Assembly: GCA_001664005.1 (NCBI GenBank)
Contig: CP016093.1
Span: 4,145,031-4,209,030 of the forward strand
Reading direction: 5' to 3'
Length of the DNA: 64,000 nt
DNA from: Rhizobiales bacterium NRL2
GTDB taxonomy: Bacteria > Pseudomonadota > Alphaproteobacteria > Minwuiales > Minwuiaceae
Position 1 is the stretch's first letter. Each line of letters starts with the position of its first letter. Below are positions 27,208-32,217 of the stretch, one piece after another. Both the position numbers and the translations under genes were made by a program. The notes under the pieces are model-generated. The model saw only the letters and a program-made list of their open reading frames with translations, did no database searches and was not told the origin of the DNA.

Positions 27208-27917
27208 GCCGATGCCGCCACGGGCGCGACGCCCCGGCGCGCCATGAAGCCCTTCAGCCACCACGCAGTAAAACCGCCCAGCGCCGCGCCGGCGACGATG
27301 TCGGCGAAGAAGTGCGCCCCGATGGCGAGCCGGCCGAGGGAGCCCGCCACCGCCGCGCCGATGAAGAACCAGCGGAAGCGCGGGAACAGGACCGAAAGCG
27401 CCACCGCCGCCGAGAACAGCGTCGTGGCGTGGCCCGAGGGGAAGGACTGCAGCCGCCAGTCGAAGGCGAACAGGGTCCACTCCGCCGTCTCGCCGGGGCT
27501 CAGCGCCATGGGACGCGCGCGTCCGAAGATAGTCTTGAAGATGTTGGCGACGATGCCGGAGACCGAGACCGAGGCCAGAAGATAGGCGAGGCTGACTGTC
27601 CACCAGCGCAGACGGCGGCGGACTTCCGGATCGCCGGCCAGCCGGAAAAGCAGCAGACAGGCCAGCAGCCAGCAGGCGCTCGGCACGATGAACCACTTGC
27701 TGTCGCCCAGGTCCTCGACGGTCCGCAGCGCCGTGGCCAGCATCCCCTGCGACTGATGCAGCTTCGTCGTCAGCCAGAGGTCGAAGCCGGCCGAGCCAAC
27801 CACCGCCGCCGCCAGGATGGCTTCGTAGAGCGCGATCTGCCAGGGCAGCAGGTAGCGGCCGCGAACCTCGGCCAGGCGGCGCTCCCCGGCGGCCCGAAGC
27901 GGGTTGGCGTCGCTCAT
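27204..27917 (-). CDS. PAP2-family phosphatase, canonical motifs
   Basis: This 237-residue integral membrane phosphatase has all three motifs: C1 KTIFGRARP (Lys128 to Pro136), C2 FPSGHATT (PSGH at 160-163) and C3 GRLAIGAHFFAD (Arg196, His202, Asp206). Predicted helices flank these. It probably dephosphorylates a lipid at the periplasmic side of the inner membrane. It overlaps both its upstream neighbour (the GT39 gene, 4 bases) and the second PAP2 gene (4 bases), so all three are translationally coupled. Having two PAP2 enzymes side by side suggests two lipid phosphate substrates or positions. Confidence 0.9.
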   Translation of the reverse strand: MSDANPLRAAGERRLAEVRGRYLLPWQIALYEAILAAAVVGSAGFDLWLTTKLHQSQGMLATALRTVEDLGDSKWFIVPSACWLLACLLLFRLAGDPEVRRRLRWWTVSLAYLLASVSVSGIVANIFKTIFGRARPMALSPGETAEWTLFAFDWRLQSFPSGHATTLFSAAVALSVLFPRFRWFFIGAAVAGSLGRLAIGAHFFADIVAGAALGGFTAWWLKGFMARRGVAPVAASA

Positions 27918-29572
27918 TGCGGCCCTTCGCTGACATAGATCGTGATCGCCACCGGCCGTCCCCGGGCGTAGTTGAAGCCTGCAACCGTCTCCATCGCGAC
28001 CACCTTGTGGCCCGTGGTCCCCAGCCGGTCAAGAAAGGCGTCCCGCTGGCGCGCTTCGACCGCGGCGACGCCGCACCGGGGATGAGCCGCCAGGTGGTCG
28101 GCCGCTTCCGCCCCGCTGCCCAGGACGGTGCGGGTTTCGGTCAGGAAGACCAGGCTCGGCTCGGTGAAGCCCGCACTGGCCAGCCAGGGACGTTCGCAGC
28201 CGGCCCGCGCCGGCAGCGCCTCGACCAGGCGCGGCGCGACGAAGGCCGGCTCGAGGGACGGAATGAAGCGTCCGAAGACCGCACCGGAGAAGACCATCGC
28301 CAGGAGGCCGAGACCGACCAGATGCCGCGCGGTCGCCCCGCCGACCGCCAGCCTGTAGCCGGCGTGCAACGCCGCGAACAGCAGCACGCCGGCGAGCCAG
28401 GCAACGCCGAAGGACAAGCCGATCTCGATTCCCATGACCGGCATGGCCAGCGCCAGCGCCAGGGTAATCAGACTCCAGAGTCCGAATGCGGTCCAGCGCC
28501 ACCAGCGCGGCCCGGCCGGGTCCGCGTCCGCCAGCGCCGCGGCGGCGAGGATCGCCAGAGCCGGATAGGCCGGCAGGACGTAGTGCGCCAACTTGGTCGG
28601 CGTCAGTGCGAAGACGATCCAGGTGAGCAGCGCCCAGCCGAGCAGCAACAGCACCTCGCCGCGGCGGCGGCTCCGCCAGATCCAGGGCAGGGCCAGCAGG
28701 CCCAGCAGCGAGAACGGCCAGAAGGTCAGCGGCGCCAGCGCCAGATAGAGGCCGGGCGGCGCGCCGTGGCTCTCCTGCCCGCCGGCGACCTTGGCGAGCA
28801 TGTCCTTGCCGATGGATTCGGCGAAGAAGCTGCCGTCGGTCGCCATGCCGATGGCGATGAACCACGGCGCGCCGACGGCGGCGAAAAGGAGAACGCCTGT
28901 CAGCGTGCGCAGCCGCCCGATCCAGCCGAGGCCGCGGCGGCGCCAGCTTTCCGCCAGCGCAAGGCCCGCGACAGGCAGGAACAGGATCGGCCCCTTGACC
29001 AGGAAGCCGGCGCCGAGCGTCGCCCAGAAACCGTAGGCGGAAAGCACCGCGCGGGCCCGCCCCTGGATGACGCGGACCATCAGCGCCAGCGCCGCGAGGG
29101 TGAATGCCAGCAGGGCCGCGTCGGTCTTGGCCGTGCGCGCCTCGACGTTGAGCAGCACCGCCGCCGCCATGATCGCGCCCGCCGTGAAGCCGACGCCGGG
29201 GCCGAACAGCATGCCGCCGATGGCCGCGGTCAGCAGTACCGCGGCGACCGCCGAGACGAGCGACGGCAGCCGGTAGGCCCAGATCGCCTCGCGCTCGCCC
29301 GTCAGGCTGACCGCGGCGGCCTGCAGCCAGTAGATGCCGGCCGGCTTCTTGTGGCGCGCCTGGTCCTGGAAGCGGATGTCGACCAGGTCGCCGGTCTCCA
29401 GCATCTGCTTGGTCGCCTGAGCGAAGCGGCTTTCGTCGCGGTCGACGGGCGGGATCGAGAACAAGCCCGGCAGGAAGAAGGCCAGCGCGACGAGGGTGAG
29501 GAGGCCGTAGCGCCAGCGCCTCGGCCAGTCGCCGATGCGGTCGATGAGGGCGGCAGGACTCATGCCGCCCAT
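27914..29572 (-). CDS. ArnT-like GT39 glycosyltransferase
   Basis: This is a polytopic protein of about 552 residues with roughly 11-12 membrane helices. The first periplasmic loop contains PPVDRDESRFAQATKQMLETG; the acidic DE pair is the hallmark of ArnT/PMT-type GT-C transferases, and KKPAGIYWLQA follows, as in ArnT. A soluble C-terminal part follows the helices. These enzymes move a sugar from a polyprenyl phosphate carrier to lipid A or a glycan in the periplasm. Starts at 29572 (MGGM) or 29563 (MSPAAL) are both possible. The upstream GT2 and LAB_N genes would supply the sugar-polyprenyl donor, giving an Arn/Rgt-like pathway. Confidence 0.88.
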   Translation of the reverse strand: MGGMSPAALIDRIGDWPRRWRYGLLTLVALAFFLPGLFSIPPVDRDESRFAQATKQMLETGDLVDIRFQDQARHKKPAGIYWLQAAAVSLTGEREAIWAYRLPSLVSAVAAVLLTAAIGGMLFGPGVGFTAGAIMAAAVLLNVEARTAKTDAALLAFTLAALALMVRVIQGRARAVLSAYGFWATLGAGFLVKGPILFLPVAGLALAESWRRRGLGWIGRLRTLTGVLLFAAVGAPWFIAIGMATDGSFFAESIGKDMLAKVAGGQESHGAPPGLYLALAPLTFWPFSLLGLLALPWIWRSRRRGEVLLLLGWALLTWIVFALTPTKLAHYVLPAYPALAILAAAALADADPAGPRWWRWTAFGLWSLITLALALAMPVMGIEIGLSFGVAWLAGVLLFAALHAGYRLAVGGATARHLVGLGLLAMVFSGAVFGRFIPSLEPAFVAPRLVEALPARAGCERPWLASAGFTEPSLVFLTETRTVLGSGAEAADHLAAHPRCGVAAVEARQRDAFLDRLGTTGHKVVAMETVAGFNYARGRPVAITIYVSEGPQ

Positions 29573-29588
29573 TGTGCGAACAGGTTGG

Positions 29589-29945
29589 TCATCCCCGATG
29601 CCGCGTCCGCAGCACTCGGGGATCGGGCAGCACGGGACATTCGGAAATCGCCGCCCCGCCAAGGCTGCCGCTCAGATCGCGCCATTCCGGATTGTGCGCC
29701 TCGATCACCGAGGTCTTCTGTTCGCGTGTCCACCGCTTTATCCGTTTCTCCCGCCGGATCGCTGACTCTGGATCGCCGTGCGACTCGTACCAGATCAGAT
29801 ACTTGATGCTGTAGCGGTTGGTGAACGAGTTGGGAATGCCCGCCTTGTGCTGATGACACCGTCCAATGAGGTCGGATGTCACGCCGACATAGAATGCGCC
29901 ACGTCGTGCATTGGCGAGAATGTAGACGTAGTAAGCCTTCACCAT
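29589..29945 (-). CDS. Single-domain GIY-YIG nuclease family protein
   Basis: This 118-residue protein has the UvrC/URI-type GIY-YIG core: YYVYIL at residues 5-10, FYVGVTSDL at 19-26, the arginine in GRCHQHKAG (Arg29), and the metal-binding glutamate in AIRREKRIKRW (Glu67) with the NPEW motif near residue 85. All key residues look present, so nuclease activity is possible. It interrupts an envelope-sugar operon, lying 80 bases after the LAB_N gene and 16 before the GT39 gene. Its last 10 or so codons are formed by a palindromic repeat (29591-29623), and another similar palindrome lies just upstream. Function is unknown; such small genes are common and mobile-looking. Confidence 0.88.
   Translation of the reverse strand: MVKAYYVYILANARRGAFYVGVTSDLIGRCHQHKAGIPNSFTNRYSIKYLIWYESHGDPESAIRREKRIKRWTREQKTSVIEAHNPEWRDLSGSLGGAAISECPVLPDPRVLRTRHRG
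29591..29623. repeat. Palindrome at the 3' end of the GIY-YIG gene
   Basis: ATCCCCGA (29591-29598) and TCGGGGAT (29616-29623) form a perfect 8-bp stem with a 17-base loop. The sequence encodes the last residues of the GIY-YIG protein. It is closely related to the palindrome at 29969-30000. Confidence 0.7.
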
Positions 29946-29968
29946 TGCCCGCGACCGGAGACCACCCG

Positions 29969-30000
29969 ATCCCCGCGCGCTGCTTCGCAACGGCGGGGAT
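29969..30000. repeat. Palindrome upstream of the GIY-YIG gene
   Basis: ATCCCCGC (29969-29976) and GCGGGGAT (29993-30000) are perfect inverted arms around a 16-base loop. Seven of the eight arm bases match the palindrome at 29591-29623, so the nuclease gene is bracketed by two copies of one repeat type. Confidence 0.7.
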
Positions 30001-30025
30001 GACGGAAAGGGGACGCCCGGAGCAA

Positions 30026-32217
<2,192 letters not shown>

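Follow-up and report, generated by a model that had tools for sequence, protein, structure and literature searches.

Why should a gene for a small nuclease be bracketed by palindromes in the middle of an envelope operon? The question is raised by a locus of Rhizobiales bacterium NRL2 that lies within a 64,000-nucleotide stretch of its genome, called the window, to whose first letter all window coordinates refer.

The nuclease gene, its operon, and its palindromes

The features at and around the locus are as follows.

29587–30004, minus strand: whole putative element, REP / GIY-YIG gene / REP with tags outward, delimited from the sequence, the palindromes, and the architecture common to related loci
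29965–30004, minus strand: upstream REP, with CGTC tag, ATCCCCGC stem, 16-nt loop, GCGGGGAT, and CGGG tail
29589–29945, minus strand: GIY-YIG nuclease gene, 118 aa (PF01541, E 5.2e-13)
29587–29627, plus strand: downstream REP, with GGTC tag, ATCCCCGA stem, 17-nt loop, TCGGGGAT, and CGGG tail
30026–30343, minus strand: LAB_N gene, upstream of the element (PF07578, E 3.6e-31)
30340–31065, minus strand: GT2 glycosyltransferase gene (PF00535, E 3.1e-26)
27914–29563, minus strand: GT39-type (PMT) gene, downstream of the element (PF13231 and PF02366)

In a profile search, PF01541 was the sole Pfam match of the nuclease gene, with a score of 49.5 bits against a curated cut-off of 22.6, and the protein retained Y8, Y19, G21, R29, E66, and N85 (own numbering), so that a preliminary description of the locus was right to report a 118-residue GIY-YIG protein with intact catalytic residues. 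We take Y8, Y19, R29, E66, and N85 to be the catalytic Y, Y, R, E, and N of the GIY-YIG superfamily; all five were invariant in 20 of 20 aligned members, and in a larger alignment of 50 rows E66 was nearly invariant and the other four were invariant. With dN/dS values of 0.05–0.46 in the nine pairs, out of ten, that allowed the ratio to be computed, the protein is under purifying selection and its catalytic residues are intact. The predicted fold had a mean pLDDT of 80, with a low-confidence C-terminal tail that is the part encoded by the downstream REP. Its nearest solved structures were the UPF0213 proteins BH0048 (1zg2) and EF2693 (1ywl), and the small GIY-YIG proteins of UPF0213/COG2827 share both the fold and the catalytic residues of the window protein; the next structural relative was Slx1, a branched-DNA nuclease, at a Foldseek E-value (0.044 and weaker) that makes it a lead only. 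The source genome carries four small GIY-YIG genes of this kind besides UvrC. As for the operon, the order GT2-LAB_N-GT39-PAP2-PAP2 given earlier stands on Pfam matches for GT2, LAB_N, and GT39, and on recognition by eye in the list of open reading frames for the two PAP2 genes. The element probably landed between the LAB_N and GT39 genes and probably has no role in the function of the operon.

Palindromes were present at 29591–29623 and 29969–30000, exactly where they had been described, and none of 100 shuffles of the window yielded even one of them. They are not two copies of one palindrome, as first supposed: their sequences differ and share only the outer arms (ATCCCCG/CGGGGAT), making them two subtypes. 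The upstream REP lies exactly 23 bp from the ATG, and the downstream REP takes in the stop codon and the final codons of the gene, in keeping with the earlier claim that the second palindrome encodes the protein end. A strict form of the palindrome pattern occurred 40 times in the 4.70-Mb source genome and not at all in a reversed control; three of the 40 copies touch or adjoin two of the four small GIY-YIG genes, namely the window gene and that of locus L003. Both window subtypes also stand side by side without a gene at genome positions 118584–118680 (pair L351).

The repeats resemble the CGTC REPs of Di Nocera, De Gregorio, and Rocco (2013; PMC3733652, available in part), a class described there as lacking a dedicated transposase and occurring mostly in Alphaproteobacteria; dRS3 of Neisseria and the Rickettsia repeats RPE-4 and RPE-6 belong to it. 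The class is defined by a CGTC, TGTC, or CCTC tag at one end, an 8–9 bp stem beginning with AT, a 4–5 nt loop, a CCA tail, and dispersed, often paired copies (PMC3733652, same part). In the window, the upstream REP carries CGTC and the downstream REP carries GGTC; both stems (ATCCCCGC/GCGGGGAT and ATCCCCGA/TCGGGGAT) begin with AT; and the copies are dispersed (the 40 strict copies against none in the control) and also paired, in two-REP units of ∼105 nt. Owing to the long loops of 16 and 17 nt and the CGGG tail found in the source genome, the window repeats are called a CGTC-type variant and are not strict members of the class; the canonical 4–5 nt loop and CCA tail are present in two of the genomes compared (G019 and G017).

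Association of REPs with small GIY-YIG genes

Two sets of loci were compiled. Set 1 comprised 60 small GIY-YIG loci drawn from 95 alphaproteobacterial genomes, each taken with flanks of at most 8 kb, together with the four loci of the source genome; the 60 were the top sixty of the match list, skipping three contig-edge matches, one second match nearby, and full-length UvrC. Set 2 comprised 80 loci from a scan of named genomes, recruited by a peptide pattern of the clade and by similarity to the window protein, and speaks for this selected GIY-YIG clade only; four of its loci were too short to test, and two more duplicate set 1. The record titles in set 2 named Omnitrophota, Bacteroidetes, Deltaproteobacteria, Dehalococcoidia, Planctomycetota, Uhrbacteria, and others. 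Tagged REPs were defined as GTCAT plus an exact 6-nt stem, and in the flank comparison the 130 bp upstream of each gene was set against the region around and downstream of its stop, with a score of at least 30 counted as a pass.

The density of tagged REPs in set 1 was 0.82/kb near the genes and 0.049/kb at distances of >1 kb. Flank-to-flank similarity reached the threshold for 32 of 64 GIY-YIG genes in set 1, as opposed to six of about 612–615 neighbouring open reading frames, and for 57 of the 76 testable genes in set 2, as opposed to 10 of 489 neighbours; with duplicates removed, the counts were 32/64 and 56/74 (neighbours in set 2, 10/488). Neighbours with spacers on both sides, used as a control, passed in three of 196 cases in set 1 and six of 213 in set 2, and HNH nuclease genes from the same 95 genomes passed in none of 30. 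Paired perfect hairpins with matching stems flanked 12 of the 64 genes in set 1 and one of 613 neighbours, and tagged REPs lay on both sides of 42 of the 76 genes in set 2 and of three of 489 neighbours. The REP detector itself found 288 REPs in the loci and eight in reversed sequence. The link between the small GIY-YIG gene and REPs is thus established computationally, and the neighbouring open reading frames, the isolated neighbours, the HNH genes, and the reversed sequence rule out chance or intergenic clutter as its source. To the question raised by the preliminary description, whether such palindromes are tied to GIY-YIG genes or are common everywhere, the answer is that they are strongly linked to one GIY-YIG clade.

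The arrangement of the flanking REPs was regular. In a collection of 168 distinct loci, the REP closest to the gene, taken up to 60 bp away, pointed its tag outward in 52 of 64 cases upstream and 56 of 68 downstream; for the tag-outward REPs the median gap was 23 bp to the start codon and 8 bp to the stop codon. Identical 6-nt stems were found on the two sides in 37 of 59 two-sided loci (mean 7.0 and maximum 16 in 2000 shuffles), and the similarity of REP stems grew with that of the proteins (Mantel rho 0.22, p 0.001, n=89, host phylogeny uncorrected).

The clades were compared in a phylum-wide sample of 26 loci. REPs flanked none of 17 gammaproteobacterial YhbQ-type genes, for which no mobility role is described in the literature examined (seen in part), and neither of two genes of another type; they flanked all four genes with a VYILAS...GTLYVGVTS kind of signature and all three of a further group. 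These last three genes, together with one alphaproteobacterial subclade, adjoin a different palindrome of the CTTCGACAAGCTCAGG kind, as sorted by eye. A palindrome of the CTTCGACAAGCTCAGGATGA kind adjoins a related GIY-YIG group (L059, L067, L078, L084, L085, L091, L092, L120, L132, and L140), and in some of those loci its end supplies the stop codon. A plasmid-borne gene of Rhizobium tumorigenes had no REP beside it (one locus). A search of a phage collection returned one weak hit only, so phage carriage is not indicated.

At the level of whole genomes the relation was looser. Among the 95 genomes, 20 contained both canonical REPs and a small GIY-YIG gene, 31 the gene only, six the REPs only, and 38 neither, and the counts of the two were loosely related (Fisher p 0.006, Spearman 0.41). 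The canonical REP pattern was missing from 31 of the 51 genomes with a small GIY-YIG gene, a shortfall due in part to other stems in use and to other GIY clades being counted. Conversely, among seven genomes hand-picked from the REP pattern table and searched again, no gene of this clade was found in three (G038, with 88 REPs; G084, with nine; G044, with seven), which implies that REPs either outlive the gene or spread otherwise.

Presence, absence, and gene-less REP pairs

The closest relative compared (G007), with 95–97% identical DNA, carries a single such gene, whereas the source genome carries four; the gene common to both is that of L003, flanks included. At the window locus, what G007 keeps is CGTCATCCCCGC, half of the upstream palindrome; the DNA after it is unrelated, and the gene is missing. 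Five further congeners lack the gene and have a short spacer only, so the gene is not a constant member of this operon. Together with the tie of the palindromes to one GIY-YIG clade, this means that both checks by which the preliminary description could have failed turned out in its favour, and its interpretation is supported. The exact empty site that it predicted, differing by the loss of palindrome-gene-palindrome alone, was not found at the window locus in any of the six congeners, where the half REP of G007 and the short spacers of the other five leave the insertion footprint unreadable.

Two other sites of the source genome were also compared. Between yebC and ruvC, a 523-bp insert of the source genome has no counterpart in G007, and the gene-less allele is without any REP; at the L001 site, G007 carries a gene-less REP doublet instead of the gene. 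(The yebC-ruvC region gave identical scores in G007 contigs C37, C15, and C4, which suggests that these contigs are redundant.) No target-site duplication was seen at yebC-ruvC, the one clean empty site, and the intergenic sequence at the other sites was diverged. Likewise, when 244 kb of the source genome was compared with one G007 contig, REP doublets were polymorphic, with spacers too diverged for target sites to be read. As a separate observation, a stretch of ∼80 bp with CTGGGGTCAAGCCCCAG palindromes beside the L002 gene (L002 1797–1878) had >30 partial matches dispersed in G007.

Comparable differences were found in other genera. Among Sphingobium plasmids, the gene separates fnrL from a response regulator in seven records, and the three that were read have the order REP-gene-REP; of four records without the gene, two have a single two-tagged palindrome, consisting of the outer arm of one REP plus the whole of the other, and two have other palindromes. 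In Sinorhizobium meliloti Ak57, between gltA and lpxB on pSymB (L279), a complete element is immediately preceded by a C-terminal piece of the gene with REPs at its borders, and strain K101 has REPs only at this site. The Ak57 piece resembles an incipient internal-deletion derivative. All the sites read (LAB_N/GT39, yebC/ruvC, fnrL/response regulator) were intergenic, with no intron, intein, or conserved target gene.

Gene-less REP pairs also occur away from such sites. The ends of the gene-bearing element of G019, down to the tails, are found again on gene-less pairs in that genome. Several loci of the source genome (L006, L010, L011, L014, L015, and L016) contain a conserved two-REP unit, ∼105 nt long and alike in its interior, that is a candidate REPIN-like element; a shared origin of its interior and that of the gene-bearing element was unsupported (permutation p 0.37–0.92). 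Tags pointed outward in 20 of 22 two-REP stretches chosen from earlier listings, and unselected loci held eight tag-outward and two tag-inward pairs; the two gene-less pairs of L001-like REPs in G007 are tag-inward.

A putative mobile element and competing explanations

The window feature is likely, in our judgment, to be a minimal mobile element in its gene-bearing form, with the order REP-nuclease-REP. Such an element would consist of a CGTC-tagged REP, ∼20 bp, a GIY-YIG gene of ∼95 codons, ∼8 bp, and an inverted second REP, with both tags outward. This layout, its recurrence, the matching of the REPs, the presence and absence between relatives, and the gene-less pairs with the same ends are all observed in the loci described above. 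The nuclease would recognise its own REPs when they are extruded as hairpins, much as Slx1 recognises branched DNA, and nick or cut there; host repair or replication would then establish a copy elsewhere, either of the complete element or of a REP pair without the gene. No GIY-YIG enzyme is known to join DNA, so the copying step must come from the host. The gene-less pairs would be non-autonomous derivatives, like the REPINs of RAYTs. REP cleavage and mobilisation by the nuclease are what we infer from these arrangements. Counting against the mobile-element reading are the three REP-rich genomes in which no gene of the clade was found, the 31 genomes with a small GIY-YIG gene but no canonical REP pattern, the target-site duplication that was looked for and not seen, the inward tags of the two G007 pairs, the dissimilar interiors of the source-genome doublets and the gene-bearing element, and the R. 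tumorigenes gene with no REP beside it.

The main rival to this element is a parasite of the homing type, in which the nuclease cuts a pre-existing REP or doublet and the gene is copied in by recombination, the REPs being its target and spreading otherwise. It fits the gene-less alleles of Sphingobium and Sinorhizobium, in which a two-tagged palindrome occupies the site, the G007 doublet at the L001 site, the REP-rich genomes without the gene, and weak matches of some members to homing endonuclease profiles. Free-standing GIY-YIG homing endonucleases share with the window-type elements a gene that is missing from the same site in relatives; they differ from these elements, which are REP-flanked, sit in many intergenic places, and have no intron, intein, or conserved target gene. 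That the flanking REPs are complete, inverted, matched, and at fixed spacing, that the gene-less yebC-ruvC allele has no REP whatever, and that REP and protein similarity covary all argue against homing, which we consider unlikely.

A second alternative, that the protein is a DNA-repair nuclease (a UvrC back-up) placed by chance in REP-rich spacers where the REPs act merely as terminators or insulators, is decidedly improbable. A repair role was proposed for the COG2827 paralogs of Caulobacter, one of which is preceded by an SOS box (PMC1839093, available in part), and REPs are generally located downstream of genes (PMC3733652, same part as above). Yet paired REPs were absent at neighbouring genes and at HNH genes, three of the four genes are missing from a relative 95–97% identical, which is unexpected for a repair gene, and termination leaves a matched, inverted upstream REP unexplained. 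Regulation offers a third reading, in which hairpins in the mRNA of the gene itself would be targets of the nuclease or of some other factor and the unit is not moved by the enzyme. The downstream REP lies inside or touches the coding region at several loci, including the window, and hairpins stand 23 bp before the start, as autoregulation might have it; it leaves unexplained both the presence and absence between relatives and the gene-less copies with the same ends, and we think it very improbable. Chance placement of an accessory gene in a REP-rich genome, for which the 40 strict copies of the source genome might speak, is refuted by all the enrichment tests with internal controls and is scarcely credible.

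If the mobile-element reading is followed, the closest known systems are the RAYT/REPIN elements (REPtrons), which likewise combine one small nuclease gene between inverted REPs, dispersed gene-less pairs, and an association of enzyme clade with REP type. The gene of the window element is flanked by inverted REPs that are also dispersed, as in a REPtron, but it does not encode an HUH tyrosine transposase: RAYTs are HUH enzymes acting on GTAG REPs, whereas the window element has a GIY-YIG enzyme and CGTC-type REPs. The RAYT analogy drawn in the preliminary description therefore holds for the architecture, and the window element would be one that works like a REPtron, outside the RAYT family. 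With the CGTC REPs as published, the window repeats share an AT-first 8-bp stem, dispersed and paired copies, and, in the upstream REP, the CGTC tag; they differ in their 16–17-nt loops and CGGG tail, as against 4–5 nt loops and CCA, and in the enzyme gene, which the published class lacks (PMC3733652, same part). GIY-YIG genes of ∼95 codons could escape a CGTC-REP survey such as that of Di Nocera et al. (2013).

Our literature search, which included few subscription papers and for which preprints were outside the scope, found, among the entries listed, none recognisable as a published link of GIY-YIG genes to REPs, dRS3, or palindromic elements. A Moraxella paper names RAYT and GIY-YIG merely as clade-specific genes (PMC9465073, available in part), and the main text of RepRanger mentions no nuclease, transposase, or RAYT (PMC12306157, available in part). 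The CGTC REPs (dRS3, RPE-4, RPE-6) have been enzyme-less in print since 2013, and the small GIY-YIG genes, whose annotations read excinuclease or UvrC-like and for which a repair role has been suspected, are a natural candidate for the missing enzyme, so that both orphans gain a testable partner. For annotation, such GIY-YIG genes look like mobile passengers able to sit in operons, as in the envelope operon here.

The small GIY-YIG protein may thus be the enzyme that spreads CGTC-type REPs. A wider proposition, on which we are evenly divided, is that a distinct class of minimal mobile elements gives rise to the CGTC-type REPs, whose range extends from Alphaproteobacteria and Neisseria to candidate phyla. 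The sole enzyme of these elements would be a stand-alone GIY-YIG protein of ∼95 residues, which would recognise the hairpins at its own ends and work by cut-and-repair without strand joining. If true, the RAYTs would be joined by another REP-making machinery of independent origin, and two unrelated nuclease folds would have reached the same palindrome-spreading life style. Beyond the Alphaproteobacteria, the gene at 2489–2773 of the Neisseria gonorrhoeae locus L275 (NZ_CP119140.1), which came from a plasmid collection, has 12 tagged REPs within 600 bp, in a dense dRS3-like array that ties dRS3-type repeats to the same GIY-YIG clade.
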